DNA of 64,000 bases from Bradyrhizobium sp. CCBAU 51765 (GTDB lineage: Bacteria > Pseudomonadota > Alphaproteobacteria > Rhizobiales > Xanthobacteraceae): NCBI RefSeq assembly GCF_015291725.1, contig NZ_CP030038.1:1353001-1417000 (forward strand), written 5' to 3'. Below are positions 35,679 through 51,970 of the stretch, piece after piece. The notes beneath the pieces were generated by a model. It did not search any database and was not told where the DNA came from. It saw only the letters and a list, made by a program, of their open reading frames with translations. Each line of letters starts with the position of its first letter. Within the stretch, counting starts at the first letter, position 1. The position numbers were made by a program, and so were the translations under genes.

Positions 35679-36491
35679 CTACTCCGCGACGCGCAGGTAG
35701 CGGGTCAGCTTGCGGTTTGCGGGGTCGCGCAGCGAGCGGTAGTAGTCGGCGCGTGATGGCTCGTCAGTGTGGCGCACGAGGTCGGTCACCGGGGTGTAGC
35801 TCAGCATGCGTCCACCGTCGGGCAGCGCGGTGCAGACGAAGCGCAGCACCTCGCCGTTGCTCAATTTGATGTTGATCGGCGTGGCATCGCCGCCCCGCAC
35901 CATCTCCATGCGTCGTGCGATGAAGGTGCCGAGCTCGTCCTCCGGCAGCTCGAACGCGCCGGTGTCGCGGCCGTGATACATCAGCGCGATGAAGGGTGGC
36001 TTGCTTTCGGCGATCTCGTCCGGCACCGCAAAATAATCGCGGAACGCGCGGTTGATGAACTCGGCCCGGGTCTCGGCATCGAGCAGCACGATGCCGATAT
36101 CGACCTGGTCGAGCGCGGCCGACAGCCGCGCGGCCGTGGCGTGGCTCCGGCGCTCGGCCGCGACCGTGCCGAGCAGCCGCTCGCGCATCAGGCCGGTGAT
36201 GCCGGCGGTGCCGACAGCCGTGACGGCCAGGAGACCGAGCCGGACCAGATCGGCGGCGCCATAGCCGGAAACGCCGTGGCGGTTGAGGAAGAACAGCGCC
36301 GCGCCGATCACTGCGACAACGGCCGTCGTCATGGCGGAGGCGAGCCCCGCGAGCGCGCCGGCGAGAGCCACGATGCAGACCAACAGCGGCGCGGGCGAGG
36401 GGGTGGAAAAAAGGCGATCGAACAGCATTGCCAGCAGCAGGGCCGCTGCCGTCAGCGCCGGACCGGAGATCGCGCGCCATCCGAACCGCAT
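35679..36491 (-). CDS. Membrane-anchored PAS-domain protein
   Basis: 270 residues: three to four N-terminal hydrophobic segments (about residues 5–100, e.g. PAPLLVCIVALAGALAGLAS) resembling the DUF4118/KdpD-like anchor, a short linker, then a PAS domain (about 125–245; RLSAALDQVDIGIVLLDAET RAEFINRAFRDYF, ending in FVCTALPDGGRMLSYTPVTD). No kinase, GGDEF, EAL or helix-turn-helix output follows, so it is an input-only sensor or must pass signals by protein contact. The start at 36491 is chosen over 36605 because the latter adds a non-hydrophobic leader. Confidence 0.8.
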   Translation of the reverse strand: MRFGWRAISGPALTAAALLLAMLFDRLFSTPSPAPLLVCIVALAGALAGLASAMTTAVVAVIGAALFFLNRHGVSGYGAADLVRLGLLAVTAVGTAGITGLMRERLLGTVAAERRSHATAARLSAALDQVDIGIVLLDAETRAEFINRAFRDYFAVPDEIAESKPPFIALMYHGRDTGAFELPEDELGTFIARRMEMVRGGDATPINIKLSNGEVLRFVCTALPDGGRMLSYTPVTDLVRHTDEPSRADYYRSLRDPANRKLTRYLRVAE

Positions 36492-36619
36492 GGACCAGTC
36501 TCGCTCCTCACGAACGAGGTCAGGCCGCAACACTGACTGATTGTTGCGTGACTGCGATGCGGTTTCGTGCGGCGTGCTTAAGGCGCGCTTGCGTGCACCC
36601 CTCAAGCTTTCCGATGATT

Positions 36620-36778
36620 TTAGACCATGTGCGCGTGCTTGACGCGCTGTTGCAGTGCGGGCGCATTCAGCGTCGACGTCCCGACGCCCTTGCGCGTGCC
36701 GACGATGATCAACAGCGACGCCGCGACCAGGATGGCCGCGGTCAGGGTGATTGCAACGACTACCACAGGTGATTTCAT
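36620..36778 (-). CDS. Small single-pass membrane protein (52 residues)
   Basis: From the ATG at 36778: MKSPVVVVAITLTAAILVAA is one long hydrophobic helix (about 4–27), followed by a basic/polar tail (GTRKGVGTSTLNAPALQQRV KHAHMV). The sequence is genuinely open and has helix-then-charge order. It lies immediately upstream of another small membrane gene (36852–37028) on the same strand. Function unknown. Confidence 0.55.
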   Translation of the reverse strand: MKSPVVVVAITLTAAILVAASLLIIVGTRKGVGTSTLNAPALQQRVKHAHMV

Positions 36779-36851
36779 CGACGTCCTGTCGCGATGCCGG
36801 TCGGCGCGGGCCGCACGGTGCCCTGAAGGTAGGTCCAGGATGAAACGGGAA

Positions 36852-37028
36852 TCAGACCGGCAGGCCCATCGCCATGGTCGCCTTGGTCGATAGCACCGTC
36901 AGGGTGACGATCAGGCACAGCGAGAGCGCGGCGACGGCTAGCGAGGCCGCGACCGCATGGGTGAGCCGGGAAGACGCGACGGTAGCGGATGGGCTCTGAA
37001 AGCCTGCCGTGCCGGACGCCCGCATCAT
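36852..37028 (-). CDS. Small single-pass membrane protein (58 residues)
   Basis: From tandem ATG codons at 37028/37025: MMRASGTAGFQSPSATVASS, then a hydrophobic helix (THAVAASLAVAALSLCLIVT LTVL), then a short TKATMAMGLPV end. Together with the 52-residue gene 74 bases downstream it forms a pair of orphan single-pass proteins next to the PAS membrane protein gene. No homology-based function can be given. Confidence 0.55.
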   Translation of the reverse strand: MMRASGTAGFQSPSATVASSRLTHAVAASLAVAALSLCLIVTLTVLSTKATMAMGLPV

Positions 37029-37182
37029 GGTCTAAATCCTTCAACACGCGAGCGAATCACCCGCGACTTCCTGGAATTTCCCAGTTTCAACCGGCAATAT
37101 TGCGGCGGCTATCGCGCCAAAAATGGCGAGATTGCGGCAAAGGGGGCCCTTATGCCCGCTATTCGCCCGGGCGCGGCGCCCG

Positions 37183-37833
37183 TCAGGCGCCCGCCGCGAT
37201 GCTGGCGGGGTCGTCGATGTCCGCCGGGCGCCAGTCCATGGTCACGAAACCGGGTGCGGCTTCGACGCGCTCGAGCCAGTCCCGGATCGCCGGGAAGGTG
37301 GAAAGATCGAAGTCGCAGCGGTCGGCGAGGTGGGTGTAGCCGTACAGCGCGATGTCGGCGACCGTGAGCTGGCGCGCAGCGAAGTAGGCGTTGGTCTTGA
37401 GATGGTTCTCCATCACCTGGAGCGCGCCATAGCCGCGCTCCATCCAGTCCTCCAGCGAATGGGTCTGGAGATCGCGGCCGCCCTTGACCAGCGACAGCCA
37501 GAAATAGGCGGCGCCGATGTTCGGCTCGAGCGCGTGCTGCTCGAAGAACATCCATTGCAGCGCTTCGGCGCGATCGATGCGGTTTTCCGGCGCGAGCGGC
37601 GTGCCGACGGCGACGTACCAGAGGATGGCATTGGACTCGGCGAGATAGCGGCCCTCGCCGACCTCGAGCAGCGGCACCTGTCCCGACGGGTTCTTGCTGA
37701 GAAAGTCCGGCGTGCGGCTCTCGCCGCGCAGGATGTCCACCTCCACCGCTTCATAAGGCAGGTTGAGCAGCGCCAGCGCAAGGCGGACCTTGTAGCTGTT
37801 GCCCGAGCGTTGCATCGAATAGAGCTTGTACAT
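37183..37833 (-). CDS. Glutathione S-transferase family protein
   Basis: 216 residues: N-terminal thioredoxin domain with KLYSMQRSGNSYKVRLALAL (Ser at the glutathione site), cis-Pro region SGQVPLLEVGEGRYLAESNA ILWYV, and a helical C-terminal domain (about 90–205) with LTVADIALYGYTHLADR. The start is at 37833 (MYKLYSMQRS); a longer frame to 37965 lacks a good site. It resembles the GSTs at 29487 and 60583, with an identical SGNSYKV / SGNCLKV type start to the last. Confidence 0.85.
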   Translation of the reverse strand: MYKLYSMQRSGNSYKVRLALALLNLPYEAVEVDILRGESRTPDFLSKNPSGQVPLLEVGEGRYLAESNAILWYVAVGTPLAPENRIDRAEALQWMFFEQHALEPNIGAAYFWLSLVKGGRDLQTHSLEDWMERGYGALQVMENHLKTNAYFAARQLTVADIALYGYTHLADRCDFDLSTFPAIRDWLERVEAAPGFVTMDWRPADIDDPASIAAGA

Positions 37834-39686
<1,853 letters not shown>

Positions 39687-39716
39687 GGCTCTGCCGCGAC
39701 AGCAGCGACAAGGCAT

Positions 39717-39746
39717 CGAAAAGGCCCGCCTCTGGCGGGCCTTTTT
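39717..39746 (+). terminator. Rho-independent terminator after aatA
   Basis: AAAAGGCCCGCC, loop TCT, GGCGGGCCTTTT with a T run, 12-base stem, 30 bases after the aminotransferase stop. Confidence 0.95.
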
Positions 39747-39869
39747 AATTGTTTGCACGCTTATCCTCGTGCGCGATCTGGCACCACCACGGCTGTTGTG
39801 GCATAGACCATCACGCAACACGGGTGGGGCGCTCTCGCTGCTCGCATCACATCATCGCCGGAGACATTC

Positions 39870-40349
39870 ATGCGCCGTTCATTCCTCCTCGCAGGGCTCA
39901 CTGCCGCCAGCCTTCTTGCCTCCGTCGCGACCGGTGGCGCGCAGCAGCGGATGACGCGGGTCGGCGTGCTCGAGTGCCGCGGCGGTGCCAGTGTCGGCTT
40001 CATCGTGGGATCGGTAACCCATCTCGGCTGTGTGCTGCGCGCCGACGGCTTGCCCGAGGACCGCTACGTCGCGACCATCCGCAAGGTCGGCCTCGACATC
40101 GGCATCACCCAGGAGACGGCGCTGGCCTGGGGTGTGTTCGCACCGGTCGACCGGCTCGGCCCCGGCGACCTCTCCGGCAATTACGCGGGCGCGCAGGGCA
40201 GCGCCTCGGTCGGTGTTGGACTTGGCGGCAACGTTCTGGTCGGCGGCTCCAACAACTCGATCGCGCTCCAGCCGCTCAGCGTACAGGGCCAGGTCGGCCT
40301 CAACGTCGCCGCCGGACTCGAAAGCCTGGAACTGCGCCCGGGGCGTTAG
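39870..40349 (+). CDS. DUF992-domain exported protein
   Basis: 159 residues with a signal peptide (MRRSFLLAGLTAASLLASVA ending near GGA). The mature part is the DUF992 domain of alphaproteobacteria: VGVLECRGGASVGFIVGSV, with one Cys pair (LECRGG and HLGCVLRADG) and a Gly-rich C-terminal sheet. Function unknown; probably periplasmic. It is the last gene before the lower-GC cluster, whose first gene ends two bases away and converges with it. Confidence 0.85.
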   Translation: MRRSFLLAGLTAASLLASVATGGAQQRMTRVGVLECRGGASVGFIVGSVTHLGCVLRADGLPEDRYVATIRKVGLDIGITQETALAWGVFAPVDRLGPGDLSGNYAGAQGSASVGVGLGGNVLVGGSNNSIALQPLSVQGQVGLNVAAGLESLELRPGR

Positions 40350-40350
40350 T

Positions 40351-41511
40351 TTAGTTTGCGGGCCATTTGTCTCGGTAGGCCTCTAGCCGAGTAGCGTGTT
40401 TCAGTCTTTCCTCAAGGTCGTGAGCATCAATTTCTGGAAACAGAGCGCGAAATCTCTGTTCGGTTAGCATCGAAAGCAGCATCCTGATGTAAGCTGGTTC
40501 ACTCGGATGGTAGGGATCGGCAAATTCATCCGGCCGGCCACCGAAACTCTCCAGTCTGCTGAAGTCAAAATAGAGCACGCCCTGGTTTCGGATCCATTCC
40601 TGCGTTTCTGCCGATCGAAACTGTCGCCACGCCCCGTAGTGTGATGATCGCTCTATGGCGTCGCGCACCTTGGGAATGTAAGGCATGGTCACCCCGACGA
40701 GCGCGATACCTTTCTGTCTTGCCAACTCGGTGAAGCGTTCGAAGTCCCGGAGAATAGAGCTGTCGAGACGCTGGGCGGGAACGAGAGGCCATTGCTTTCC
40801 TGCCTCGATTGCAGAAACGCTGTCCGTTCCGTCGTCGAAAGTGCGCGATCCGTAATTGTAGGATCCGTCAAGACGAAATCCAGAGCCGGTCCGTATCGCA
40901 GATAAACCCAATGCGGGGGTGCCATCGTAAGAGGGCCAGGGAAATCTGCGGGTGCGCACCAGATCCTCGAATACGCCGAGAATAATGCCGATCTGTTCAG
41001 GTGTCGCCCAGCCGCCTATTTCGCCGCGAGATTGAGATGAGTAGGTTGTCTCGAATGTGGGAACGAAGGGAAAATAGTCGATCGAGAAAATAATAACGCG
41101 GGGGCTGAAGTCGCCGAATTCCTCGAGCATGCGAGCGAAGTCACGGACCACAAAAACTGCGTTCGCAGCATTATAAAACCTTGTGGGATGAAACATGGCG
41201 CTACGCCACTGATTTGCGCGTGAGGATCCCATCGCCACCGCTTCCGGTTTTCTCTGGAGAACCGCATCTACCTTCAGCCGGTACGAATGATCCGACAGCT
41301 TGGGAAGGTATACGAATGACGCTCCATGGGCCTGCAGCCACGCGACGGTGCTGACGGGCAGCAGTTCGCCGCACAGAAGGGGGATTCCGAGTCCAGGAAC
41401 TGCGATCATCGCCAGGGGCAGCAGAAAGATGCCCAGCCGTAGGAGGAATCGCCTGGCCGGGTGAGTGCCGGTGAACGGGCTAGAACTTGAAATAAATGAA
41501 CTGCTGGACAT
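40351..41511 (-). CDS. SGNH/DltD-like acyl-transfer partner protein
   Basis: 386 residues. A hydrophobic segment (RFLLRLGIFLLPLAMIAVPG) makes it membrane-anchored with the rest outside. The SGNH-type residues are S96/S97 in VAMGSSRANQWR and an Asp–x–x–His near residue 340 in FADPYHPSEPAY. This matches the DltD/AlgJ-like proteins that work with an MBOAT partner. The gene overlaps the end of the MBOAT gene by 32 bases. It probably hands the acyl group from the MBOAT to the final acceptor, or hydrolyses it; this is inference from pairs such as DltB–DltD and AlgI–AlgJ. Confidence 0.8.
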   Translation of the reverse strand: MSSSSFISSSSPFTGTHPARRFLLRLGIFLLPLAMIAVPGLGIPLLCGELLPVSTVAWLQAHGASFVYLPKLSDHSYRLKVDAVLQRKPEAVAMGSSRANQWRSAMFHPTRFYNAANAVFVVRDFARMLEEFGDFSPRVIIFSIDYFPFVPTFETTYSSQSRGEIGGWATPEQIGIILGVFEDLVRTRRFPWPSYDGTPALGLSAIRTGSGFRLDGSYNYGSRTFDDGTDSVSAIEAGKQWPLVPAQRLDSSILRDFERFTELARQKGIALVGVTMPYIPKVRDAIERSSHYGAWRQFRSAETQEWIRNQGVLYFDFSRLESFGGRPDEFADPYHPSEPAYIRMLLSMLTEQRFRALFPEIDAHDLEERLKHATRLEAYRDKWPAN

Positions 41512-42907
41512 TCGAAGATGCTTGTGAAGCGTGCTGGATCATTGCGGAGACGATGCATGCGACGGCGGCGTAGTAGCCTGACCAGCGGAGCCAGACCGGG
41601 AAGGGCTTGGCGTCCTTGGCCCATGTGACCAGGAGGTCGTATGCGATGACTGCCGCGATTGCTAGCAGAGGCTTCGTCTGCGCGACCGTTGCGACGCCCT
41701 CGGCTCCGGTGAAGAGTGTCTTGTAGATCCAAAGCGCCTCTCGGAGACCGCTGGCGCGAAATAGGATGAACGTCAGGGTGACGATGACGAACGTCGTCAC
41801 GGCACGCAGCACCAGCAGCACCGGGCGCGGAATGCGGGATCGCCAGAACCGATCGCGCCGGGCGAAGGTGAGCGTCGAGAATGCGACGAGGGCGCCGTGG
41901 ATCAAGCCGAAAACGGCGAAGTTGAATCCGGCGCCGTGCCAGATGCCGACCAGCACGAAGGTGAAGACCAACGCCCCGGCAAGACCATACTTCCCCCAAC
42001 GCCTTGCCTGGAACTGCAATGGCATGAAAACATAGTCGCGAAACCAGGAGGACAGGCTGATGTGCCAGCGCCGCCAGTAGTCGGGCAGATTCTGGCTGAG
42101 CCAGGGTTGCATGAAATTGATCGTGAGTTCGATACCCAGCAGGCGAGCACTTCCGATCGCGATCAACGAGTAGCCGGCAAAGTCTGCGTAGACCTGAAAT
42201 GAAAAATAGATGGTGGCGAGCGCCAGGTCGACGGCCCCGTGATTGCGGGGCGCCGAATAGATGGCGTCAACATAAGGTGCCAGCGTATCGGCGACGACGA
42301 TCTTGAGGAACAGGCCGGTGAGGATGGCGCGCAGGCCGGTAACCGCGCGTTCGTAGTTGAACACGCCGAGATTTTCGAGTTGCGGCAGCAAATGCCGCGC
42401 GCGCTCGATCGGACCGGCGGTCAGATGCGGGAAGAAGAGCATGACTGCGCCGAATCGGATTGCGTTCCTTTCGGCCGGCTGGCTTCCGACAAAAACGTCA
42501 ATGACGTATCCGGCTGCCAGAAACGAATAGAACGAGATGCCGATCGGCAGGATGACGTTGGCCATCGTCGACCATCGGACCGCCAGATCGCTGTCGGGTG
42601 GCAGCAGATGATAGGCGGTTGCTGCGTACTTGAAGAACAGCAGCGGCAGGAGGGTCGCTGTCAGGAGCGCCGCAAACAGCATACCCCGCACCCGGCCCTC
42701 GGGCACGCGAGACAGGACGAGTCCGGAGAAATAGGCCAGCGTGGCGACTGCGACCAGCACGTACCACGTGCCAGGATTGAGGCTGACATAGAAGAGTAGG
42801 CTGATGAAGGTCGTCGCGAGCAGGCGTGGCGCGCCCTGCGGAATGGCGTGCACGATCAGCGTCACAATTCCAAGAACCAGCAGGTAACGCAGATCGCTGA
42901 ACGCCAT
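41480..42907 (-). CDS. MBOAT O-acyltransferase (AlgI/DltB family)
   Basis: 475 residues and about eleven hydrophobic segments. The MBOAT active-site histidine is H324 in VGIWHGAGFNFAVFGLIHGA, with a second conserved H282 in YWRRWHISLSSWFRDYVFMP. The family motif PHLTAGPIERARHLLPQL is present. Such enzymes move an acyl group across the membrane or onto a polysaccharide or teichoic acid, using an acyl donor on a carrier protein. It starts three bases after the ACP stop, and the ACP is the likely donor. The acceptor is unknown. Confidence 0.9.
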   Translation of the reverse strand: MAFSDLRYLLVLGIVTLIVHAIPQGAPRLLATTFISLLFYVSLNPGTWYVLVAVATLAYFSGLVLSRVPEGRVRGMLFAALLTATLLPLLFFKYAATAYHLLPPDSDLAVRWSTMANVILPIGISFYSFLAAGYVIDVFVGSQPAERNAIRFGAVMLFFPHLTAGPIERARHLLPQLENLGVFNYERAVTGLRAILTGLFLKIVVADTLAPYVDAIYSAPRNHGAVDLALATIYFSFQVYADFAGYSLIAIGSARLLGIELTINFMQPWLSQNLPDYWRRWHISLSSWFRDYVFMPLQFQARRWGKYGLAGALVFTFVLVGIWHGAGFNFAVFGLIHGALVAFSTLTFARRDRFWRSRIPRPVLLVLRAVTTFVIVTLTFILFRASGLREALWIYKTLFTGAEGVATVAQTKPLLAIAAVIAYDLLVTWAKDAKPFPVWLRWSGYYAAVACIVSAMIQHASQASSNVQQFIYFKF

Positions 42908-42910
42908 TGG

Positions 42911-43150
42911 CTACGCCGGAAGCTTCCCGCGCAAGCAGTCCATCATCTCGCCGACGTTCTGGAAGCCCATCACCTCGCGGGTGCTGAACTTCACCTTGAA
43001 GGTTTCCTCGAGCGTCATGATCAGGGTGATGTGATTCAGCGAATCCCAACCGACGACGTCCTTTGCCTGCATCTCCCGATAGATGTTCAAGTCCGGATTG
43101 TCGAACACCTCGCGGAAGACGTTCTGTACGCGTGTTTCAAAATTGCTCAT
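42911..43150 (-). CDS. Stand-alone acyl carrier protein
   Basis: 79 residues. The phosphopantetheine serine is S37 in VVGWDSLNHITLIMTLEETF, the normal D-S-L motif. Acidic helix II is present. Its start ATG overlaps the FkbH stop by one base (TAATG), so translation is coupled. A separate ACP next to an FkbH enzyme and an MBOAT implies a dedicated carrier rather than the fatty acid ACP. No phosphopantetheinyl transferase gene is in the window, so it must use one elsewhere. Confidence 0.9.
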   Translation of the reverse strand: MSNFETRVQNVFREVFDNPDLNIYREMQAKDVVGWDSLNHITLIMTLEETFKVKFSTREVMGFQNVGEMMDCLRGKLPA

Positions 43151-44937
43151 TATGATTGTGGCTCTGGTTCGTGAATGATGATCGGGATGGATTGGAGCTG
43201 GTATTGGCCAAGATCCAGCGAATAGACGCGCGTTGTGCCTTCTTCGCCGGCCGCGGCGAAACCTTGCTGCGGATAAAGATTTTCGACGATGCCGTTCTTT
43301 GTAGTCGGGATGTAGCGCCCGACCAGCCTGCGGCAGCCCAGTTGCCTGGCCTTTTCGGCCATAACCTGAACCGTCAGATCCTCGACGCGGCGCCCGAGCA
43401 CGCGGCAGCTCATGATCCACGTGTCGACGATGGCATCACTGCCCGACTTCCTCAAGATCACCGTTGCGATGATGCCGTTGTCGCCGAGCCGGTCGGCCAG
43501 CCGGATGCAGAAAGCCGCGGCGTCGCGATCAGCGGCAAGCTGGCGCAGATCGGCCTCGCTGTGCCGGATCGTCGTGAGGTTGAATTGGTTGCTGCGCTGG
43601 ACAAGCTGAAGGACACGGGGCAGCGCGTAGCTGTCGAACGGCAGGATGTGCGCCTCCATCCTGAGTTCGGCGATGAAGTCGTCCAGCCCGTGGAACTTCT
43701 CCCGGATCGTCTGACGCTGGTCGTCCGCTTGATAATAGGCGAGCCGGGCCAGATCCTCGGCCGTCGCCGACCGGCCTTCGAACAAATTCCAGCGGGCCAG
43801 ATCGCTGATGAAGTCGGCGGGGTCAGTCGACAACTCCGGTACCTGCATCGCGGGAAACGCCGTTCGGATGAGCGACCGCTCGAAAGCTGTGTCGTCTAGG
43901 AAGACGAAGCTGTCGAGGCCGAGGTTCAACTTTTCCCGGATCGCGAGAATATTGCTGGCCTTGTCGCCGAAATTGGCGACGACGGCCGCGAAATCATCCC
44001 AACGCAAGATCATGTCTGGATGATTTTTCAGGACGTCAGTTACGTTCGCCTGGTCGTTCTTGCTGCAGACCGCGAGCAGGACGCCGCGAGATTTCAGTTC
44101 GAGCAGAGCGATCTGGAAGCGCTGGAAAGCGAGCCCGAGTTCGGTCTGCCCAATCTCGAGCCGGTCCGCGCCGTCCTCGGCCAGAATGCCTCCCCACATC
44201 GTATTGTCGAGATCGACGATCACGCATTTGATGCCGGCGCCGCGTTCCACCAGTATGGTATCGCTGACGTTCTTGACCAGTGATGGGATGAAGGACGGGG
44301 ACAATGCCTGCTTCGCTTGGCACCAGAGTCGTTCGTCGAGCCAATGGCGCTTGCCGTGGTAGCCGGCCTGAAATTCGGTATCGACGATCTTCACGCCCTG
44401 CTCGGAAGCGGCGTCGAGAAGGCGCTGATTTATCCGGGTTACGGTGGACGTCAAAGTATCGCGCTCGCTCGCGGTGCGATTGCCAAACGGACGATTGAGC
44501 GGCACCACGAAATTGTGCTGAATCAGGATAGCGTTGCTGCGCGACCGAACCCGCTTCCACAGTTCAACCATCTCGCTGCTGACGCTATCCGCGAACGCGG
44601 CCTTTTCGGCACTTCGCGCAAAACGGTGGTAGAGCGCCTGGGTTGCCGTGAACAGGATGACCACTTCCGGATCGAAGCGATAGAGTTCGCTCGCCGGGTT
44701 CAATATCTCCTGGCGTATCGTATCGAACTCGGCCTCGTATATCTCAGGCCACCATCCCCTCAACTTCAAGGTGGCGGCGAGTGCCTGCCCGTAATGTTGG
44801 GTGGCCGCGTCGCCGAGCAGCGCAATACGCAAGTTCGGCTGCCCGTCCTTTCGTTCGATGCGCCGGCCGAGCGAAATCAACCGATGGAACGGCAAATCGG
44901 CCAGTTCCCACGCCTGCGGCAAGTTCAGCAAATCCAT
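43150..44937 (-). CDS. FkbH-like HAD-IIIC / GNAT bifunctional protein
   Basis: 595 residues in three parts: an N-terminal SGNH-like region (about 35–210), a HAD domain with motif I DLDNTMWGGILAEDG (D242, D244), VCSKNDQANV at 291–300, and FLDDTAFERS (D348, D349), and a C-terminal GNAT-like region (SNQFNLTTIRHSEADLRQL onward). FkbH enzymes of polyketide pathways dephosphorylate 1,3-bisphosphoglycerate and load the glyceryl group on an ACP. All expected motifs are present, so glyceryl-ACP formation is a plausible reaction. It lies between a MaoC gene and the ACP gene. Confidence 0.88.
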   Translation of the reverse strand: MDLLNLPQAWELADLPFHRLISLGRRIERKDGQPNLRIALLGDAATQHYGQALAATLKLRGWWPEIYEAEFDTIRQEILNPASELYRFDPEVVILFTATQALYHRFARSAEKAAFADSVSSEMVELWKRVRSRSNAILIQHNFVVPLNRPFGNRTASERDTLTSTVTRINQRLLDAASEQGVKIVDTEFQAGYHGKRHWLDERLWCQAKQALSPSFIPSLVKNVSDTILVERGAGIKCVIVDLDNTMWGGILAEDGADRLEIGQTELGLAFQRFQIALLELKSRGVLLAVCSKNDQANVTDVLKNHPDMILRWDDFAAVVANFGDKASNILAIREKLNLGLDSFVFLDDTAFERSLIRTAFPAMQVPELSTDPADFISDLARWNLFEGRSATAEDLARLAYYQADDQRQTIREKFHGLDDFIAELRMEAHILPFDSYALPRVLQLVQRSNQFNLTTIRHSEADLRQLAADRDAAAFCIRLADRLGDNGIIATVILRKSGSDAIVDTWIMSCRVLGRRVEDLTVQVMAEKARQLGCRRLVGRYIPTTKNGIVENLYPQQGFAAAGEEGTTRVYSLDLGQYQLQSIPIIIHEPEPQS

Positions 44938-44959
44938 ACGCCGGGAGTTCCGATTAGAG

Positions 44960-45412
44960 CTAGACGGTTACTGGTAAATCGTTATCGGTCGCGTCATTGA
45001 GCGACCTCACATCCAGAATGCGATGCCAGGTCTTGCCCGATGCCAGAACAGTCCCGCTGTCGTCAGTGATCGCGATATCAAGTACAATCGTCGCGACAGC
45101 CTCGCTGATCTGCCTGACCGTCGCTGCCAGCTTGACGTCACAGGGTGCGTAGCATGGCTTGCGAAAGGCAATATCCGCTCGCTCAAGGACCGATCGCGGG
45201 CCCGGAAATTCCGTTCCGACGAGGCGTGACACTAGGGCCATTAGGTAAGCCCCGTGCACGACGACGCCGTCGAAGCCTGCGGCCTTTGCGAACTCCGCGT
45301 CAACATGCAAAGGAGCAGTGTCGCCGGACAGCGCGACATATCGGGCCAGGTCATCCCGGGTGATCGGAATTCCCAGATGATGGGTCTGGCCGACGTGAAA
45401 GGCTGTCAACAT
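44960..45412 (-). CDS. MaoC-like hydratase / hotdog protein
   Basis: About 150 residues. The hotdog hydratase pattern is YVALSGDTAPLHVDAEFAKAAGFDG, with Asp–x4–His at the catalytic spot, and GVVVHGAYLMALVSRLVG. It is the first gene of the minus arm of the cluster, 22 bases before fkbH. A TTG at 45439 is the alternative start; the ATG at 45412 is preferred, giving MLTAFHVGQTHHLG. In a pathway with an ACP it could hydrate or dehydrate an acyl-ACP; the substrate is unknown. Confidence 0.8.
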   Translation of the reverse strand: MLTAFHVGQTHHLGIPITRDDLARYVALSGDTAPLHVDAEFAKAAGFDGVVVHGAYLMALVSRLVGTEFPGPRSVLERADIAFRKPCYAPCDVKLAATVRQISEAVATIVLDIAITDDSGTVLASGKTWHRILDVRSLNDATDNDLPVTV

Positions 45413-45683
45413 TCGTGGCTGGTCCGCTGTAGGCCGCAATGATGGCGATCGATAGCTGATTATTGCCGAACTGTTGCCCGACGTTGCAGACTATTGCCAT
45501 GAAGCGGGTGTGGCAGTCAAAGCCCAACTAGAGTTAGAGCTCAGACCACAGCTCTGCGGGGTTGAAGCGGCGAGGTGCCGGCCCGGTGGTGCGTCCGGGG
45601 CGAATTGCCGATGTTCCTGTTCAGCTTGTTTGCCGCGGGATTTCGGTGGTACTTTCGCAGTTCACAGGAAAGACGAGGTCAAT
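45413..45683. promoter_or_regulatory. Divergent promoter region of the acyl-unit cluster
   Basis: About 270 bases between the MaoC gene (minus) and the methyltransferase gene (plus), the only place from which both arms could be driven. It has AT-richer patches such as GATAGCTGATTATTGCCG. No clear sigma-70 box pair was identified. The upstream end of the long methyltransferase frame overlaps this stretch but looks non-coding. Confidence 0.45.
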
Positions 45684-46598
45684 TTGTTGAACAATCTGCA
45701 AAAATGGGCCGCCATTTGTAACGAGATGCAGGAAAATTATCCGGTTCTCGCGACCCCGTTTCTTGCTGCAGAAAAGCGATTCGGGCCGCGTTGGGTCGAG
45801 GAAGCGGTGCCGGCCATCGAGGGGATGTATGGTGACATCGGCAGTCCGTTGTCGGGTCGACTGAAAGACGCCTTGGGTTGCTACGCCGAGTTCGCGAACG
45901 ATTCCATGCGCCATCAGGTCATGTTCGAGCGAAGCGGAAAATATCGTGCCTCCAATTATGAGGAGGTGCGCGCGGCGTTGTACGACAACGCTGACCACAT
46001 GACTCAGAACTATCTGCCGGGTCTCTGGTTCTCGCACTACGTCTGGCCGCAGCATTACTTCACGCTGATCGGATTCACGAGCTGCGTCTTGCCGCGGATC
46101 GAAGATGAGGGCGTATTCTTCGAAGTCGGCGTCGGCTGTGGCATGTATTCCAAGATCACCCTGGACAACAAACCGGGCATTCGGGGCATTGGTTTCGACA
46201 TCAGCCAGCACTCACTTGATTACACCGGCCGGGTGATGAAATCGTTCGGCTACGAATCTAGGTATAGGTTGGAAAACCGCGACATCCGCTACGGCTATGA
46301 CGTCAAGGCGGATTTCCTGATTTGCCAGGAGGTCCTCGAACATCTGGAAAATCCAGCGGAGTTCTGCCGCTGGCTATTCGACATGATCCGCCCGGGAGGG
46401 CAAGCTTTTATCACCGCCGCACTCAACGCGGGCCATTCCGACCACATCTTCCTCATTCGTCATCCCGTCGAGGTCGAGAAGATGCTTAGCGAAGCCGGCT
46501 TTCAAATCTCGCGTATCCAGGAAGAGAGCGCTCCGGGTTCTAAGCCGCGCAATCTGACGCCCAGTCTCGCCGGTTTCCTCTGTGCAAAACCGCTTTGA
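45684..46598 (+). CDS. Class I SAM-dependent methyltransferase
   Basis: About 304 residues using a TTG start at 45684 (a second TTG follows), preceded by ACGAGG. The SAM-binding motif I is GVFFEVGVGCGMYSKITLDN, motif II KGIGFDISQHSL-like, and acidic motif DFLICQEVLEHLENP is typical of class I methyltransferases. The frame stays open upstream to 45474 but that part is compositionally different. It is coupled to the SDR gene (which starts as this gene stops). Likely methylates an intermediate or product of the cluster; the substrate is unknown. Confidence 0.78.
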   Translation: MLNNLQKWAAICNEMQENYPVLATPFLAAEKRFGPRWVEEAVPAIEGMYGDIGSPLSGRLKDALGCYAEFANDSMRHQVMFERSGKYRASNYEEVRAALYDNADHMTQNYLPGLWFSHYVWPQHYFTLIGFTSCVLPRIEDEGVFFEVGVGCGMYSKITLDNKPGIRGIGFDISQHSLDYTGRVMKSFGYESRYRLENRDIRYGYDVKADFLICQEVLEHLENPAEFCRWLFDMIRPGGQAFITAALNAGHSDHIFLIRHPVEVEKMLSEAGFQISRIQEESAPGSKPRNLTPSLAGFLCAKPL

Positions 46599-46600
46599 AG

Positions 46601-47215
46601 ATGACCAATCTCGTCATCATCACGGGCACGAGCCGGGGACTGGGCAGGGCTCTTAAGCAGGAATTCGAACGGGTCGGGTGGCGCGTGGCGGAATTGAACC
46701 GGCCCGCGTTCGATCTATCCGCCGTCGATGTCGAAAAGCTCGATACCATATTCAAGTCGCTGCGTTCGGAACAGTTCGATCGTGCGGTGTTCGTCAACAA
46801 TGCAGCGACCCAAGTCATAGGTGCAGCGGCTTCGTTTGGTGTGGCCGAAATTTTGCATGAAATTACCGTCAACGTGGCTTCCCCGATCATCGCGATCACG
46901 ACCTTCCTGCGCCATTTCCCCGACGGCGAGATCGCCAACGTGACATCCGGAGCGGCGGCCAAGCCGATACCCCATTGGTCCCTCTACTGTGCTGCGAAGG
47001 CCGCGCTCGAAGGCTATGTCCGTGCCGTGGAGACGGAAGGGCGACGCGTGTTCAATCTGAATCCGGGTGTGGTCGACACGGACATGCAAGCACATATCCG
47101 CGGCTCCGAATTTCCCGGCGTGCAGGACTTCATCGCCTTGAAGAAGGACGGGAAATTGCGATCGTCGGAGGCTGTCGCGAGAACTCTTGTCTGGATGATT
47201 GATCGGGCCGGATGA
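46601..47215 (+). CDS. Short-chain dehydrogenase/reductase
   Basis: 204 residues; a small SDR. Cofactor motif VIITGTSRGLGRALKQEF (TGxxxGxG), NAG-type NNAATQV, and the catalytic Tyr–x3–Lys in WSLYCAAKAALEGYVRAVET, Ser in NVTSGAAAKP. Resembles sepiapterin-reductase-like SDRs. The ATG at 46601 is preferred, two bases past the methyltransferase stop; a TTG at 46595 overlaps that stop. It would reduce or oxidise a ketone or alcohol in the product pathway. Confidence 0.85.
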   Translation: MTNLVIITGTSRGLGRALKQEFERVGWRVAELNRPAFDLSAVDVEKLDTIFKSLRSEQFDRAVFVNNAATQVIGAAASFGVAEILHEITVNVASPIIAITTFLRHFPDGEIANVTSGAAAKPIPHWSLYCAAKAALEGYVRAVETEGRRVFNLNPGVVDTDMQAHIRGSEFPGVQDFIALKKDGKLRSSEAVARTLVWMIDRAG

Positions 47216-47437
47216 GGCGGCCGACCCGCGGTCTCTGCAGGGAACCAATGCTGGCTCGCCTCATGCCGAAGAACGGGTGCGCTTGACCGGTTCTTCGCCG
47301 GTCGCGACGAGCGAGATCAATCAGGCTTGACGACGCACCGCAGCGACGTTTGATGCTTGCCAAATCTCGGGGAGGGGCAGAGCATCCGCGTTTGCCGACC
47401 CAATCACGGGCCGAGCTCCACACCAAGGAGGCGGCGA
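47216..47437. other. Intergenic boundary between the cluster and the EF-G-like gene
   Basis: About 220 bases with no gene or repeat recognised. It is the right border of the lower-GC cluster. No direct repeat, tRNA fragment or integrase remnant was seen. Confidence 0.4.
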
Positions 47438-49501
47438 ATGGGACAAGACGTCAGAAGTCCCCCGGTCAATAAAACATTGGGTCCACGGTGCATCGCGCTG
47501 GTGGGCCCTTTCCAAAGCGGTAAAACCACACTTCTCGAAGCAATTCTGGCGCGAACGGGCGCAATCCCGCGCGCGGGCAGCGTCGACGGCGGAACCTCCG
47601 TCGGCGACGCCACGCCGGAGGCCCGTCATCACAAGATGACCGTCGGGCTGACTGCCGCGACCACGAGTTTCATGGGCGACAGCTACACTTTCCTCGACTG
47701 TCCCGGTTCCGTCGAGTTTGCCCACGACATGCGCGCCGCGCTTCCCGCGGTCGACGCCGCAATCGTGGTCTGCGAGGCCGACGAGAAGAAGCTGCCGCAG
47801 CTTCAGATCATCCTGCGCGAGCTGGAGGAGCTGAAGGTCCCGCGTTTCCTGTTCCTGAACAAGATCGATCGCGCCAACAAGCGCATCCGCGAGACGCTCG
47901 CCATGCTGCAGCCTGCCTCGCGCGTGCCGCTGGTGCTGCGCCAGATCCCGATCTGGAAGGACGAGTTGATCGAGGGCTTCGTCGATCTCGCGCTGGAACG
48001 CGCCTTCATCTATCGCGAGCACAAGGCCTCCGAGGTGGTCGCGCTCGAAGGGGGCGATCTCGATCGCGAGAAGGAAGCCCGCTTCTCGATGCTGGAGAAG
48101 CTTGCCGATCACGACGATGCGCTGATGGAGCAGCTTCTCGAGGACATCCAGCCGCCGCGCGATGCCGTGTTCGACGATCTCGCCCGCGAATTGCGCGAAG
48201 GCTTGATCTGCCCGGTGCTGCTGGGCTCGGCTGCGCGCGAAAACGGCGTGCTGCGCCTGATGAAGGCGCTGCGCCACGAGGCGCCCGGCATCGCGGAGAC
48301 GGCGAAGCGTCTCGGCGTTCCCGAGTCCAGGGACGCGCTCGGCTACGTCTTCAAGACACTGCATTCGCAGCATGGCGGAAAACTGTCGCTGACGCGCCTG
48401 CTTGCCGGCCATCTCGACGACGGAGCGACGCTGCAATCCGCCTCCGGGGGCCTGGGGCGTATCTCCGGCATCCTCGCCGTCAACGGCGCCTACGATACCA
48501 AGCGTGCCTCGGCCGAAGCCGGCGACACGGTGGCGCTGGCCAAGCTCGAGGCGATCAAGACCGGCGACACGGTGTCGAACGGCAAGACCCCGCCCGCGGC
48601 CTTGATCACGATCGAGCCGACGGCGCCGGTGCTCGCGATCTCGATCGCGGCCGTCGATCGCAAGGACGACGTCAAGCTCGGCCAGGCGATGACGCGGCTG
48701 CATGAGGAGGATCCGTCACTCGTCGTCGTGCAGAACGCCAAGACCCATGACACCGTGCTGTGGGGGCAGGGCGAGATGCACCTGCGCGTGGCCGGCGAGC
48801 GGCTGCGTGATCGCTTCGGCGTCAAGGTCACTTCGCATCCGCCGGGGATCGGCTACCAGGAAACCATCCGCAAGCCGATCACCCAGCGCGGGCGGCACAA
48901 GAAGCAGTCCGGGGGCCACGGTCAGTTCGGCGACGTCGTGCTCGACATCAGGCCGCTGCCGCGCGGCGACGGCTTCAGGTTCGGCGAGAAGGTCGTGGGC
49001 GGCGCGGTGCCGCGCAACTACATCCCGGCGGTGGAAGAAGGCGTGGTCGACGGATTGGCCCGCGGCCCGCTCGGCTTCCCCGTCACCGACGTGGAGGTGA
49101 CGCTGACCGACGGCTCCTATCACAGCGTCGACTCCTCCGATCTCGCCTTCCGTACGGCCGCGCGGATCGGGCTCAACGAAGGCCTGCCGCAATGCCAGCC
49201 GGTCTTGCTGGAGCCGATCCACGTGGTCGAGATCGTCTGCCCGACCGACGCCACTGCCAAGATCAATGCGATCCTGTCGGCGCGGCGCGGCCAGATTCTC
49301 GGCTTCGACACCCGCGAGGGCTGGAGCGGCTGGGACTGCGTCCGCGCCATGATGCCCGAAGCCGAAATCGGGGAACTGATCGTCGAGCTGCGCTCGGCCA
49401 CCGCCGGCGCCGGCAGCTTCACCCGCCAGTTCGACCACATGGCCGAGGTCACCGGCCGCGCCGCCGACCAGATCATCGCCGCGCATCAGCACGCGGCGTA
49501 A
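47438..49501 (+). CDS. EF-G-like translation-factor paralogue with altered GTPase motifs
   Basis: 687 residues, the full EF-G domain plan (G, II, III, IV, V). The P-loop is LVGPFQSGKTTLLEAI. The G3 motif reads FLDCPGSVEFAHD at about 87–94 instead of the canonical DTPGHVDF, so the catalytic His is Ser-91. G4 NKIDRANKR (141) and a G5-like LGSAA are kept; the switch I region is short and lacks the usual RGIT. Domain IV retains a QSGGHGQFGDVVLDIRPL loop. The start at 47438 is set by AAGGAGG seven bases upstream. A conserved EF-G-like family exists in alphaproteobacteria; its role is not translocation and is not established. Confidence 0.88.
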   Translation: MGQDVRSPPVNKTLGPRCIALVGPFQSGKTTLLEAILARTGAIPRAGSVDGGTSVGDATPEARHHKMTVGLTAATTSFMGDSYTFLDCPGSVEFAHDMRAALPAVDAAIVVCEADEKKLPQLQIILRELEELKVPRFLFLNKIDRANKRIRETLAMLQPASRVPLVLRQIPIWKDELIEGFVDLALERAFIYREHKASEVVALEGGDLDREKEARFSMLEKLADHDDALMEQLLEDIQPPRDAVFDDLARELREGLICPVLLGSAARENGVLRLMKALRHEAPGIAETAKRLGVPESRDALGYVFKTLHSQHGGKLSLTRLLAGHLDDGATLQSASGGLGRISGILAVNGAYDTKRASAEAGDTVALAKLEAIKTGDTVSNGKTPPAALITIEPTAPVLAISIAAVDRKDDVKLGQAMTRLHEEDPSLVVVQNAKTHDTVLWGQGEMHLRVAGERLRDRFGVKVTSHPPGIGYQETIRKPITQRGRHKKQSGGHGQFGDVVLDIRPLPRGDGFRFGEKVVGGAVPRNYIPAVEEGVVDGLARGPLGFPVTDVEVTLTDGSYHSVDSSDLAFRTAARIGLNEGLPQCQPVLLEPIHVVEIVCPTDATAKINAILSARRGQILGFDTREGWSGWDCVRAMMPEAEIGELIVELRSATAGAGSFTRQFDHMAEVTGRAADQIIAAHQHAA

Positions 49502-49619
49502 GACGTTAGGGAGTCTCAGCTCCCTCACACCCTCTCCCCCCTCTTCGCGGGGGGAGGGCGGGGTCAGGGGCTGTTTCCGCGGGCGCGGTAAGAGTTGGGC
49601 TCTCCGTTCTCCTCCCACC

Positions 49620-49696
49620 GTCATTGCGAGCGCAGCGAAGCAATCCAGAATCCCTCCGCGGAAAGACTCTGGACTGCTTCGCTGCGCTCGCAGTGA
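49620..49696. repeat. Palindromic repeat, family F
   Basis: GTCATTGCGAGCGCAGCGAA GCAATCCAGA and TCTGGACTGCTTCGCTGCGC TCGCAGTGAC form near-perfect inverted arms of about 30 bases. Related to 29351–29464. Confidence 0.85.
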
Positions 49697-49795
49697 CGCT
49701 GTGGATGCGGACCTGCCTCAGGCAGACGTGAGGATTCGCAGAACCTCTCCCCGCGGACGAACCGGGAGAGGTTAGCTCTTGTGTTCGATTCCTGT

Positions 49796-49812
49796 TGATG
49801 TATTTTACATCA
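49796..49812. promoter_or_regulatory. Perfect palindrome in the XRE promoter region
   Basis: TGATGTA TTT TACATCA, a perfect 7+3+7 palindrome in the only strongly AT-rich spot in this part of the window, 50 bases before the XRE start codon. Small XRE regulators commonly bind such sites and repress their own gene. The assignment is inference from position and symmetry. Confidence 0.55.
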
Positions 49813-49861
49813 TTGTATATGTTTTAGATATCATTTATAGGGACTGATAAGTGAGGCCAAG

Positions 49862-50134
49862 GTGATCACGGCATTCCAGATGCGGGCAGCGCGCGCGCTG
49901 CTCGGCATTGACCAGAAAACCTTGGCCGAGCTCGCCGGCGTTTCGCTGCCGACCATCCAGCGGATGGAGGCCAGCACCGGCAATGTTCGTGGCGTGGTCG
50001 AAACCCTGATCAAGGTGGTCGAGGCGTTCGACCGGGCCGGCGTCGAGCTGATCGGCGAGCAGGCCCGCAGCGACGGCGGCGGGCGTGGCGTTCGCCTGAA
50101 GGAGCCGGGGCAGCCGCGCCGCGTCGGAGCATGA
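49862..50134 (+). CDS. XRE-family helix-turn-helix regulator
   Basis: 90 residues. The HTH is compact: FQMRAARALLGIDQKTLAEL AGVSLPTIQRMEASTG, a Cro/CI-type fold. C-terminal part has VETLIKVVEAFDRAGVELIG, then a basic, possibly disordered tail. Starts with GTG. It sits 94 bases before the SulP transporter gene on the same strand and downstream of an AT-rich palindrome that may be its operator. No toxin gene partner was found beside it. Confidence 0.85.
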   Translation: MITAFQMRAARALLGIDQKTLAELAGVSLPTIQRMEASTGNVRGVVETLIKVVEAFDRAGVELIGEQARSDGGGRGVRLKEPGQPRRVGA

Positions 50135-50227
50135 TCGAGCGTTGATCGTGCCCGGGATCAGGATGGGCTAGCGCATCGTCGCACCTCGGCAACGAAGGGG
50201 CGCACGGTGCTTTGGAGCATTGTGGGC

Positions 50228-51970
50228 ATGAGCATCACGACCGATCAGGCAAACCGGCTGCACCAGCTGCGTCAGCCGACCTTTGCCGAACTGTATTTGC
50301 CGAAACTCGTCACCGTCTGGCGCGAAGGCTATGGCATCGCGGATTTCCGTGCCGACGTCTTCGCCGGCCTGACGGTTGCGATCGTCGCGCTGCCGCTGTC
50401 GATGGCGATCGCGATCGCCTCGGGCGTGACGCCGGACCGCGGTCTCTATACCGCCGTCGTCGGCGGCTTCATCGCTTCCCTGCTCGGCGGCAGCCGCTTC
50501 CAGATCGGCGGACCGGCCGGCGCGTTCATCGTATTGGTCGCGGCGACCGCGGAGCGGCACGGCGTGGATGGCGTCATCCTCGCCACCATGATGGCGGGCC
50601 TGTTCCTGGTCGCCGCGGGCCTGCTACGGATCGGCACCTACATCAAGTTCATCCCCTATCCGGTGACGGTCGGCTTCACCGCCGGCATCGCCGTGATCAT
50701 CTTCGCCAGTCAGCTCCGCGATCTCTCGGGCATCACGCTTGCAGGGAAAGAACCCAGCGAGTTCGTGCCAAAGCTCGTCGCGCTCGCCGGCGGCCTCAAC
50801 ACCATCAATCCGTCCGCCGTCGCTGTCGCCATCGTCAGCATCGCCATCATCGCCGGCTTGCGCCGCTGGCGGCCGTCCTGGCCCGGCATCCTGATCGCGG
50901 TCGTGTTTGCGGCGGTGGCGACTGCGGTGCTGTCGCTCCCGGTCGAGACCATCGGCTCGCGCTTCGGCGGTATTCCGCGCGAATTGCCGTCGCCGGCGCT
51001 GCCCGCGTTCTCGGTCGCGAAGGCGACCGCCGTGCTGCCGGATGCGATCGCGTTCGCGCTGCTGGCCGCCATCGAATCGCTGCTGTCGGCGGTGGTCGCG
51101 GACGGCATGACCGGCCGCCGTCACCGCTCCAATTGCGAGCTGGTGGCGCAGGGAGCCGCCAATGTCGGCTCGGCGCTGTTCGGCGGCATCTGCGTCACCG
51201 GCCTGATCGCACGCACCGCCACCAACATCCGCGCCGGCGCGCGCGGACCGCTCGCTGGTATGCTGCATTCGGTGTTCCTGCTGCTGTTCATGCTGATCGC
51301 GGCGCCGCTGGCGAGCTACATTCCGCTGGCCGCGCTCGCCTCCGTGCTGGTCGTGGTGGCTTGGACCATGGCGGAGAAGCACGAATTCGCCACGCTCCTG
51401 CGTTCGTCATGGGGCGATGCCGTGGTGCTGCTGGCGACCTTCCTGCTCACGGTCTTCCGCGATCTCACCGAGGGCATCCTGGTCGGCTTCGCGCTCGGCG
51501 CGGTGTTGTTCATCCACCGCATGGCGGAGATGACGGGCATCGAGGAACGCACGCCGCTGGTGGCGGCCGATCGCCCCGACGACGGCAATGGCGATCGCGT
51601 TCCCTACGATTCCGCCCTCGCGGTCGACCGCGACGTGCTGGTCTATCGCATCACCGGTGCGTTCTTCTTCGGCGCAGCCTCGGCGATCGGCGGCGTGCTC
51701 GATGGCATCGCCGACGAGCGCAAGGCCTTTGTGGTCGATTTCGCTGCGGTGCCGTTCCTGGATTCGACCGCGGCCAACGTGCTCGGCCGCGTCGCCGCCA
51801 AGGCGCACCGTCAGGGCATCAAGTTGTTCATCACGGGAGCCTCGCCCACGGTCCGCCGCGCGCTGCTCACCCATGGCGTGACGCCGCCGCGCGCGCGCTA
51901 TCGCACGAGCCTCGAGCGCGCCATCGCCGACATCAAGAGCCGGGCCGCCGACGAGGCTGCCGCGAGCTGA
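50228..51970 (+). CDS. SulP-family anion transporter with STAS domain
   Basis: 580 residues. About twelve membrane segments; SulP signature near the N-terminus with VTPDRGLYTAVVGGFIASLL and GGPAGAFIVLVAATAE. A cytosolic STAS domain occupies the last ~120 residues (FVVDFAAVPFLDSTAANVLG RVAAKAHRQGIKLF). SulP proteins move sulfate, bicarbonate or dicarboxylates; the substrate cannot be told here. The ATG at 50228 is preferred to the GTG at 50207 because the latter lacks a clear ribosome site. It follows the XRE gene and may be regulated by it. Confidence 0.9.
   Translation: MSITTDQANRLHQLRQPTFAELYLPKLVTVWREGYGIADFRADVFAGLTVAIVALPLSMAIAIASGVTPDRGLYTAVVGGFIASLLGGSRFQIGGPAGAFIVLVAATAERHGVDGVILATMMAGLFLVAAGLLRIGTYIKFIPYPVTVGFTAGIAVIIFASQLRDLSGITLAGKEPSEFVPKLVALAGGLNTINPSAVAVAIVSIAIIAGLRRWRPSWPGILIAVVFAAVATAVLSLPVETIGSRFGGIPRELPSPALPAFSVAKATAVLPDAIAFALLAAIESLLSAVVADGMTGRRHRSNCELVAQGAANVGSALFGGICVTGLIARTATNIRAGARGPLAGMLHSVFLLLFMLIAAPLASYIPLAALASVLVVVAWTMAEKHEFATLLRSSWGDAVVLLATFLLTVFRDLTEGILVGFALGAVLFIHRMAEMTGIEERTPLVAADRPDDGNGDRVPYDSALAVDRDVLVYRITGAFFFGAASAIGGVLDGIADERKAFVVDFAAVPFLDSTAANVLGRVAAKAHRQGIKLFITGASPTVRRALLTHGVTPPRARYRTSLERAIADIKSRAADEAAAS

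Follow-up and report, generated by a model that had tools for sequence, protein, structure and literature searches.

Seven open reading frames arranged in two arms make up the locus, all of them present and intact, with no internal stops: the minus-strand arm encodes a MaoC protein, an FkbH-type enzyme, an acyl carrier protein (ACP), an MBOAT protein and an SGNH-like protein, and the plus-strand arm encodes a methyltransferase (MT) and a short-chain dehydrogenase/reductase (SDR) (Table 1). They lie in the window, by which is meant the whole stretch of 64,000 nucleotides of Bradyrhizobium sp. CCBAU 51765 that was analysed. Start codons are uncertain for MaoC (perhaps 45412), the methyltransferase and the SDR (perhaps the ATG at 46601), and the ACP start, an ATG at 43150, overlaps the FkbH stop. 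The genes form an island whose right junction was read from the sequence and whose G+C content is 58.5%, the two flanks having 66.2% and 66.1%. The corresponding site is empty in close relatives: EF-G lies at most 1.5 kb after DUF992 in 13 of 13 relatives with DUF992 identity of at least 90%, a result that rests on these 13 genomes, and where DUF992 is 75–82% identical EF-G comes next in only 3 of 11 loci. A search of 117 genomes of the genus gave no FkbH with more than 40% identity, and this result and the empty site together speak against vertical inheritance. A tRNA-targeted island is ruled out by the absence of tRNA genes at 35000–52000, and an RNA element by the absence of any Rfam match at gathering score within 38000–50000. 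The island nature was absent from the earlier note on this DNA, as were the C-terminal shuttle motif and the wide distribution of the gene set.

Table 1. Features of the island, with positions in the window
Feature	Position	Strand	Family matches and residues
Island	40350..47328	.	about 6,979 bp; insertion flanked by DUF992 and EF-G-like genes
SGNH/DltD-like acyltransferase (predicted), one N-terminal helix	40351..41511	-	triad S97, D332, H335; predicted SGNH fold
MBOAT	41480..42907	-	PF03062; catalytic H324; C-terminal FIYFKF with Y472
Free acyl carrier protein, 79 aa	42911..43150	-	PF00550; phosphopantetheine Ser37
FkbH-type HAD enzyme (acyl loader)	43150..44937	-	PF21211, TIGR01686
MaoC-type dehydratase	44960..45439	-	PF01575, 68.9 bits
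SAM methyltransferase, FkbH/ACP-linked family	about 45687..46598	+	PF13489, over cut-off
Short-chain dehydrogenase/reductase	46595..47215	+	PF00106, 82 bits, over cut-off; YCAAK active-site motif

The identities that the earlier note had given to the seven genes agree with family matches and, for the SGNH-like protein, with the predicted fold. FkbH reaches 284.6 bits with TIGR01686 (cut-off 146.65) and 95.1 bits with the FkbH_N domain PF21211 (cut-off 27), and its residues D242, D244, T246, S292, K326, D348, D349 and C511 are kept in all 81 aligned relatives; the first seven are the HAD catalytic residues. The ACP matches the PP-binding domain PF00550 with 30 bits (cut-off 20.8). Its Ser37, already proposed as the carrier serine, sits in GWDSL, with the DSL serine kept, and all 12 rows of alignment A7 share W35, D36, S37 and L38. 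Glyceryl loading from 1,3-bisphosphoglycerate by FkbH and ACP is the accepted route in the tetronate and methoxymalonyl pathways (PMC7489565), and for AerB of the aeruginosin pathway glycerate is described as being loaded by FkbH and then methylated on the carrier (PMC10143770). Judging from FkbH family membership, the acyl group on the ACP is probably a C3 acid, glyceryl. It could be argued that the machine is unchanged but that a different acyl phosphate serves FkbH as donor, the acid loaded then not being glyceryl, as the literature searched yielded no assay of an FkbH of this branch and the nearest solved structure, 3slr, is titled only 'uncharacterized protein BF1531'. This reading is unlikely, given that the HAD residues and C511 are identical in all the relatives and that the domain model cut-off is passed with a wide margin.

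The MBOAT protein (PF03062, 68.9 bits) resembles DltB by sequence and fold; its DltB equivalog score, 189 of 375 bits, is far below the cut-off. The top PDB match of its predicted model is DltB, with a TM-score of 0.73 relative to target length. Towards the C-terminus the model has two additional helices ahead of the terminal FIYFKF, which corresponds to the FXYXXF acyl-shuttle motif of MBOAT–SGNH systems and falls within the last 15 residues of the model, where confidence is low (pLDDT about 51–59). All 26 rows of alignment A4 have H324, F470 and Y472. The motif has been shown to carry acyl-Tyr in PatA and D-Ala in DltX (PMC12148441). An exact FXYXXF ending is present in 56 of 60 complete FkbH-linked MBOATs, and the motif is also found in 18 of 18 MBOATs that are not linked to FkbH. 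Because the unlinked proteins carry it too, the motif cannot show that ACP is the donor, and it fails as a discriminator of ACP-fed from CoA-fed MBOATs.

No Pfam or NCBIfam model matches the SGNH-like protein. Its predicted model has an SGNH fold with DltD as top PDB match (Z 12.3, 236 residues, rmsd 6.1), a match in which DltD is tied by fold score with plain SGNH esterases and Foldseek TM-scores are only 0.37. All 7 rows of alignment A3 keep the triad S97/D332/H335. Among 40 proteins encoded after MBOATs (alignment A2), the position of H335 is conserved in 40, that of S97 is Ser in 32 and that of D332 is Asp in 24. The gene next after MBOAT in this set usually encodes an SGNH-superfamily partner, the exceptions including one acyltransferase-3 match and one methyltransferase match.

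The gene set recurs in other genomes. ACP and MBOAT are both encoded within 6 kb of FkbH in 55 of 80 loci from named genomes, and MBOAT is near FkbH in 60 of them; these are the best 80 of 497, a sample that leans towards such loci, as query A1 had three rows, two of them picked after MBOATs had been seen beside them, that includes near copies (e.g. L104, L105 and L109; L162 and L163), and in which ACPs hidden under overlapping ORFs are missed. By genome labels, the 55 FkbH–ACP–MBOAT loci (from the best 80 of 497) span eight phyla, and a related set lies on pSymB of Sinorhizobium meliloti. Less selected samples with 1.5 kb flanks were also counted: of 30 FkbH loci in the genus, the window's own among them, 12 have an MBOAT alongside, and of 27 in the phylum, 7 have both ACP and MBOAT. 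MBOAT genes are few, with no more than 47 matches across 41 related genomes, so their presence in most of these FkbH loci is more than expected by chance.

The MBOAT–SGNH pair could nevertheless perform ordinary acetylation from acetyl-CoA, with FkbH and ACP as a separate unit brought next to it by chance or co-transfer. The shuttle motif and the SGNH partner are indeed as in the acetyl-CoA-using Pat/Alg-type systems (PMC12148441), and searches with the MBOAT or SGNH-like protein of the window retrieved 17 MBOAT loci, none of which shows FkbH. The 60 FkbH loci with an MBOAT do not fit this explanation, nor does the MBOAT tree: on its 81 sequences the linked and unlinked labels need 3 changes, as against 16.4 when shuffled (0 of 500 shufflings as low), a separation that may be helped by sampling, with unlinked MBOATs from one class and linked ones from many, and with the same MBOAT entered for loci L111 and L070. 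The linked MBOATs thus cluster in lineages of their own, and the closest relatives of the window MBOAT, in a set of 15 (SH-aLRT 96), are all FkbH-linked. Ordinary acetylation is therefore considered quite improbable.

A second alternative is that FkbH, ACP, MaoC, SDR and methyltransferase make a small secreted metabolite, a natural product, and that MBOAT acylates this metabolite instead of a surface polymer. FkbH enzymes are mainly familiar from the biosynthesis of polyketides and peptides, and aeruginosin clusters contain FkbH and a methyltransferase as well as an MBOAT to which acylation of a peptide-borne sugar is ascribed (PMC10143770). The own genome, however, holds no match to the modular PKS signal PF16197, which speaks against a PKS or tetronate supply role, and none of the 13 flanking ORFs scanned encodes a PKS, an NRPS or a glycosyltransferase. 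Glycosyltransferases abound beside FkbH loci of other genomes (of 123 neighbours scanned, in loci up to L165 and with near copies included, 15 match PF00534 and 9 match PF00535), and the SGNH-superfamily partner that usually follows MBOAT is as in envelope acylation. A natural product is likewise considered quite improbable. These results also bear on the earlier note, which had proposed a dedicated system with no PKS or glycosyltransferase nearby and had named three findings that would speak against it, two of them a lack of conserved co-occurrence and an ACP that feeds a distant PKS: the FkbH–ACP–MBOAT core does recur, in the 55 loci counted above, the neighbourhood is as it had described among the 13 flanking ORFs scanned, and the PF16197 result leaves the distant PKS unsupported. 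Its view that an ACP-borne small acid is handed to the MBOAT–SGNH pair is supported.

Tailoring genes that recur in FkbH loci are MaoC plus SDR, methyltransferase and epimerase-like genes. For the MaoC protein, the 6 rows of alignment A8 all keep D40, P43, H45 and D47. The methyltransferase aligns along its length with Bacteroidota methyltransferases from FkbH clusters, and across 347 genomes of the order it has 5 further matches, each beside FkbH and ACP. Natural fusions, of methyltransferase to ACP in locus L118 (an ACP additional to those of the 55 loci) and of MaoC to SDR beside FkbH (of 7 such proteins scanned, 5 pass the cut-off for both domains), tie the tailoring genes to the carrier. 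As the 5 loci retrieved with the methyltransferase lack an MBOAT, and none is seen in the flanking DNA compared at seven MaoC–SDR loci, the methyltransferase and MaoC–SDR belong to FkbH–ACP generally and not to MBOAT systems. All three occur together in only 1 of the 55 FkbH–ACP–MBOAT loci, L152 (from the best 80 of 497).

The cluster is likely to be a carrier-protein-fed MBOAT–SGNH acylation system. The model proposes that FkbH would take the acyl part of glycolytic 1,3-bisphosphoglycerate, strip its 3-phosphate and, as its family suggests, load D-glyceryl onto the Ser37-phosphopantetheine of ACP. MaoC, SDR and methyltransferase may then alter the ACP-bound acid, dehydration and reduction giving lactyl-ACP and O-methylation a methoxy derivative. 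To go by motif and fold, MBOAT would receive acyl-ACP at the inner face, where His324 would help to move the acyl group to the protein's own Tyr472 in FIYFKF, at the outer face. Ser97 of the SGNH-like protein would in turn take the acyl group from Tyr472 and esterify a hydroxyl of an exported polymer. The acceptor is most likely a surface glycan; among the ORFs scanned, no glycan gene lies beside the cluster. With slightly less confidence than is given to the acylation system itself, we favour a broader proposal: a third, unnamed MBOAT–SGNH arrangement, loaded by FkbH from 1,3-bisphosphoglycerate, would combine a Dlt-like carrier with a Pat-like fused shuttle. Its range would take in eight phyla or more, and the surface polymers of its hosts would bear glyceryl, lactyl or methoxy-C3 acids, depending on interchangeable tailoring genes (MaoC plus SDR, methyltransferase, epimerase-like); other exit enzymes would serve in some lineages, e.g. 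a WcbI-family protein in L217.

Many small acyl groups on bacterial surface polymers are without known makers. If the proposal is true, it offers a candidate route from 1,3-bisphosphoglycerate of central metabolism to surface glyceryl, lactyl or methoxy-acyl esters, the tailoring genes give a rule to predict the acyl group, and the carrier-fed MBOAT relay reaches beyond teichoic acid D-alanylation. It also raises the questions of whether Sinorhizobium meliloti bears such an acyl group and what supplies the glycerate in gellan.

No description of the FkbH–ACP–MBOAT–SGNH arrangement was found in full-text searches of one open-access library; FkbH, MBOAT and acyl carrier protein are met together in one paper, an aeruginosin review, which places FkbH and MBOAT in a peptide pathway (PMC10143770). 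Tetronate (glycerate-utilisation) and methoxymalonyl-ACP sets likewise combine FkbH with a stand-alone ACP, the methoxymalonyl sets adding an O-methyltransferase (PMC7489565). The window cluster, in contrast, is without a FabH-like or PKS partner, and its exit is the MBOAT–SGNH pair. Methylated glyceric acid is also found on a surface glycan of Campylobacter jejuni, whose genes for di-O-methylglyceric acid are presumably linked to FkbH/ACP. There it decorates the pseudaminic acid of flagellin, and the passages that describe it neither name its genes as FkbH or ACP nor report an MBOAT–SGNH step (PMC3068675, PMC3958885). Gellan of Sphingomonas elodea resembles the proposed product in bearing a glycerate substituent on an exopolysaccharide (PMC6796983), and excerpts of PMC6796983, PMC9197254 and PMC10970089 name no glyceryl transferase for it. 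The PatA–PatB peptidoglycan O-acetylation and alginate-type pairs share the C-terminal FXYXXF of MBOAT, the two extra helices and the separate SGNH protein (PMC12148441), but the account given of them has an acyl-CoA donor and no carrier protein, whereas the window operon has a free ACP and a loader. In a 2025 paper a carrier protein is described for Dlt only, the other MBOAT–SGNH pathways being said to lack one. The Dlt system (DltA, DltC, DltB, DltX, DltD), which D-alanylates teichoic acids, also sets a carrier beside a DltB-like MBOAT and a DltD-like SGNH protein, with an acyl-Tyr relay motif. It differs in that the cluster has the FkbH loader and none of its seven proteins matches a ligase family that could include a DltA-type loader, that the cluster's MBOAT carries the shuttle motif as a fused C-terminal segment, the part played in Dlt by the DltX microprotein, that this MBOAT scores far below the DltB cut-off, and that the cluster's hosts are mostly Gram-negative. 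What appears to be new here is the union of carrier protein and fused shuttle in one MBOAT–SGNH arrangement, in a family of gene clusters from several bacterial phyla; in its parts, the proposed system would correspond to Dlt with FkbH replacing DltA and the DltX peptide fused to MBOAT.

The earlier note had observed a seven-gene cluster here, and this is confirmed: the genes are intact, with no internal stops, lie where that note had placed them, and match in domain scans as MaoC, FkbH, PP-binding (ACP), MBOAT, methyltransferase (MT) and SDR. No family model matched the SGNH-like protein in these scans, and its assignment stands on predicted fold and residues. MaoC, FkbH, ACP, MBOAT and SGNH form one five-gene run on the minus strand, in which the FkbH and ACP reading frames overlap, 3 bases separate ACP from MBOAT, and MBOAT shares 32 bases with SGNH; the other two genes, MT and SDR, are divergent from this operon. 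Key residues are conserved: all FkbH HAD residues and Cys511 in 81/81 aligned relatives, Cys238 in 80/81, the ACP WDSL motif in 12/12, and MaoC D40, P43, H45 and D47 in 6/6. The proposed mechanism, in which FkbH would load a C3 acid on the ACP for tailoring and relay through MBOAT, Tyr472 and SGNH to an exported glycan, is rather likely to be right in outline, and glyceryl is the probable unit loaded.

H324, F470 and Y472 of the MBOAT are kept in 26/26 aligned sequences, and the protein ends in FIYFKF. Its model (pLDDT 87; 51-59 across the final residues) best matches DltB 6bug (E 3e-15, TM 0.73 by target length), with human PORCN next (E 9e-9). Two additional helices lie ahead of FIYFKF in the model; such a helix pair is reported for PatA, not DltB (PMC12148441). 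In a tree of 81 MBOATs, 63 FkbH-linked and 18 unlinked, the label changes 3 times, against a shuffled mean of 16.4 (0/500 shuffles so low), and the window MBOAT groups with 14 others, all linked (SH-aLRT 96), from Pseudomonadota, Acidobacteriota and Myxococcota. Because the tree separates linked from unlinked sequences, it points to linked MBOATs specialised for ACP donors, although the unlinked comparison rows all come from one class. The exact FXYXXF end occurs in 56/60 complete linked MBOATs and in 18/18 unlinked ones as well, so that it marks the MBOAT-SGNH kind and not the donor. The window's genome, a single contig of 8.4 Mb, carries a second MBOAT (see table).

The SGNH-like protein keeps S97, D332 and H335 in 7/7 aligned sequences. 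Its model (pLDDT 78.6) first matches DltD 6o93 (E 2.8e-4, TM 0.37); VIA-align Z puts DltD 3bma (12.3) level with sialate esterases (11.7), with PatB at 10.6. The predicted SGNH fold is therefore firm, and closer kinship to DltD, given this tie, is not. Among 40 genes following MBOAT (the window and 39 others), an SGNH-superfamily gene is often directly next, with overlapping Pfam matches to GDSL_2 (10/40), ALGX (7), DHHW (6), GDSL (6) and DUF459 (4), and the catalytic His column holds His in 40/40.

An FkbH alignment scan of genomes, from which the best 80 of 497 relatives were taken (all 80 with record names), placed both ACP and MBOAT within 6 kb of FkbH in 55/80, and MBOAT without ACP in 5 further loci. 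By their labels, these 55 include Pseudomonadota, Acidobacteriota, Bacillota, Bacteroidota, Ignavibacteriota, Spirochaetota, Myxococcota and Thermodesulfobacteriota. Less selected samples gave lower rates, 12/30 loci in the genus and 7/27 in the phylum (1.5 kb flanks only). MBOATs are otherwise scarce: 41 related genomes gave 47 matches. In the reverse control, searching 385 genomes of the class with the window MBOAT yielded 13 MBOAT loci, and the window SGNH found 4 loci, none of either with FkbH within 5-17 kb. The S. meliloti pSymB MBOAT ends in FLYQGF; strains 1021 and R14 show FkbH there as two ORFs, several other strains as a single one.

Tailoring genes in the operon around FkbH vary among the 55 loci (from the best 80 of 497): none in 23, MaoC+SDR in 18, Glyoxalase_4 (epimerase-like) with MT in 4, MaoC alone and Glyoxalase_4 alone in 3 each, a lone SDR in 2, a lone MT in 1, and MT+MaoC+SDR in 1, namely L152, a Bacteroidetes MAG locus with all seven functions of the window cluster. 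A natural MT-ACP fusion exists, MaoC-SDR single-protein fusions adjoin FkbH (both domains above the Pfam cut-off in 5/7 scanned), and the window MT found 5 other matches in 347 genomes of the order, 5/5 beside FkbH and ACP and 0/5 with MBOAT there. These fusions and neighbourhoods tie MT, MaoC and SDR to the carrier-bound acid. Chemically, MaoC and SDR could convert glyceryl-ACP to pyruvyl-ACP and then lactyl-ACP.

Among 123 neighbour proteins scanned at the 55 loci, as far as L165, glycosyltransferases of group 1 (15/123) and group 2 (9/123) suggest that surface glycans are the likely acceptors. None occurs among 13 flanking ORFs scanned at the window cluster. DUF6056 was found in 5/123; the match itself was read for L104. 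Alternative exits also stand beside FkbH, a WcbI-family protein (L217, same loader as in the window cluster, other exit enzyme) and an Antibiotic_NAT-family protein (L223).

G+C drops to 58.5% over the block containing the cluster, from 66.2% and 66.1% in the ~10 kb on either side. In 13/13 loci of relatives with DUF992 90-94% identical (L181-L193), the EF-G-like gene directly follows DUF992, an empty site whose DNA in close relatives meets the window sequence again at ~47329; this order holds in just 3/11 relatives with DUF992 75-82% identical. The nearest FkbH in the genus is 40% identical (117 genomes searched). Low G+C, empty sites and distant FkbH together make acquisition as one block most likely. 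Neither tRNA nor Rfam family was found at the insertion site.

Coordinates of features in the window and in loci from genome searches (L; G000 is the window's own genome)
Location	Source	Feature
30587-33363	Window	DUF1800 and DUF1501 genes side by side, a pair without known function
40351-47215	Window	Seven-gene cluster
40350-47328	Window	Low-G+C block
G000:C1:481707-482381 (L001)	Window's genome	Second MBOAT, motif FIYFRF, unlinked part of tree
L118:10640-11818	Saprospiraceae MAG	MT-ACP fusion, FkbH-linked MT
L216:13206-18405	S. meliloti pSymB	FkbH-ACP-(409 aa)-MBOAT-VOC
L218:12034-17956	S. meliloti pSymB	FkbH-ACP-(409 aa)-MBOAT-VOC
L104:6185-7546	Lachnospiraceae glycosyltransferase cluster	DUF6056 membrane protein directly ahead of MBOAT and FkbH
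L105:6203-7597	Lachnospiraceae glycosyltransferase cluster	As L104
L109:6185-7546	Lachnospiraceae glycosyltransferase cluster	As L104
L217:8794-13274	Niveispirillum plasmid	FkbH, ACP, WcbI-family polysaccharide enzyme, MaoC-SDR fusion; transposases on flanks
L223:11015-11905	Genome of window's genus	Antibiotic_NAT-family protein next to FkbH, ACP and MT

No prior description of an FkbH-ACP-MBOAT-SGNH arrangement was found in searches of an open-access full-text library. A parallel is the Dlt system, in which, according to PMC12148441, DltB receives D-Ala from the carrier protein DltC and passes it to DltX. The window set would work alike, yet it is not a Dlt member, since DltA, present there, is absent from the cluster, and its MBOAT reaches a DltB score of 189 of 375 bits. 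Non-Dlt MBOAT-SGNH pathways are described in that paper as lacking a carrier protein, their motif being fused to the MBOAT itself; the window set differs from Pat/Alg in its carrier and, on this description, combines a Dlt-type carrier with a Pat/Alg-type fused motif.
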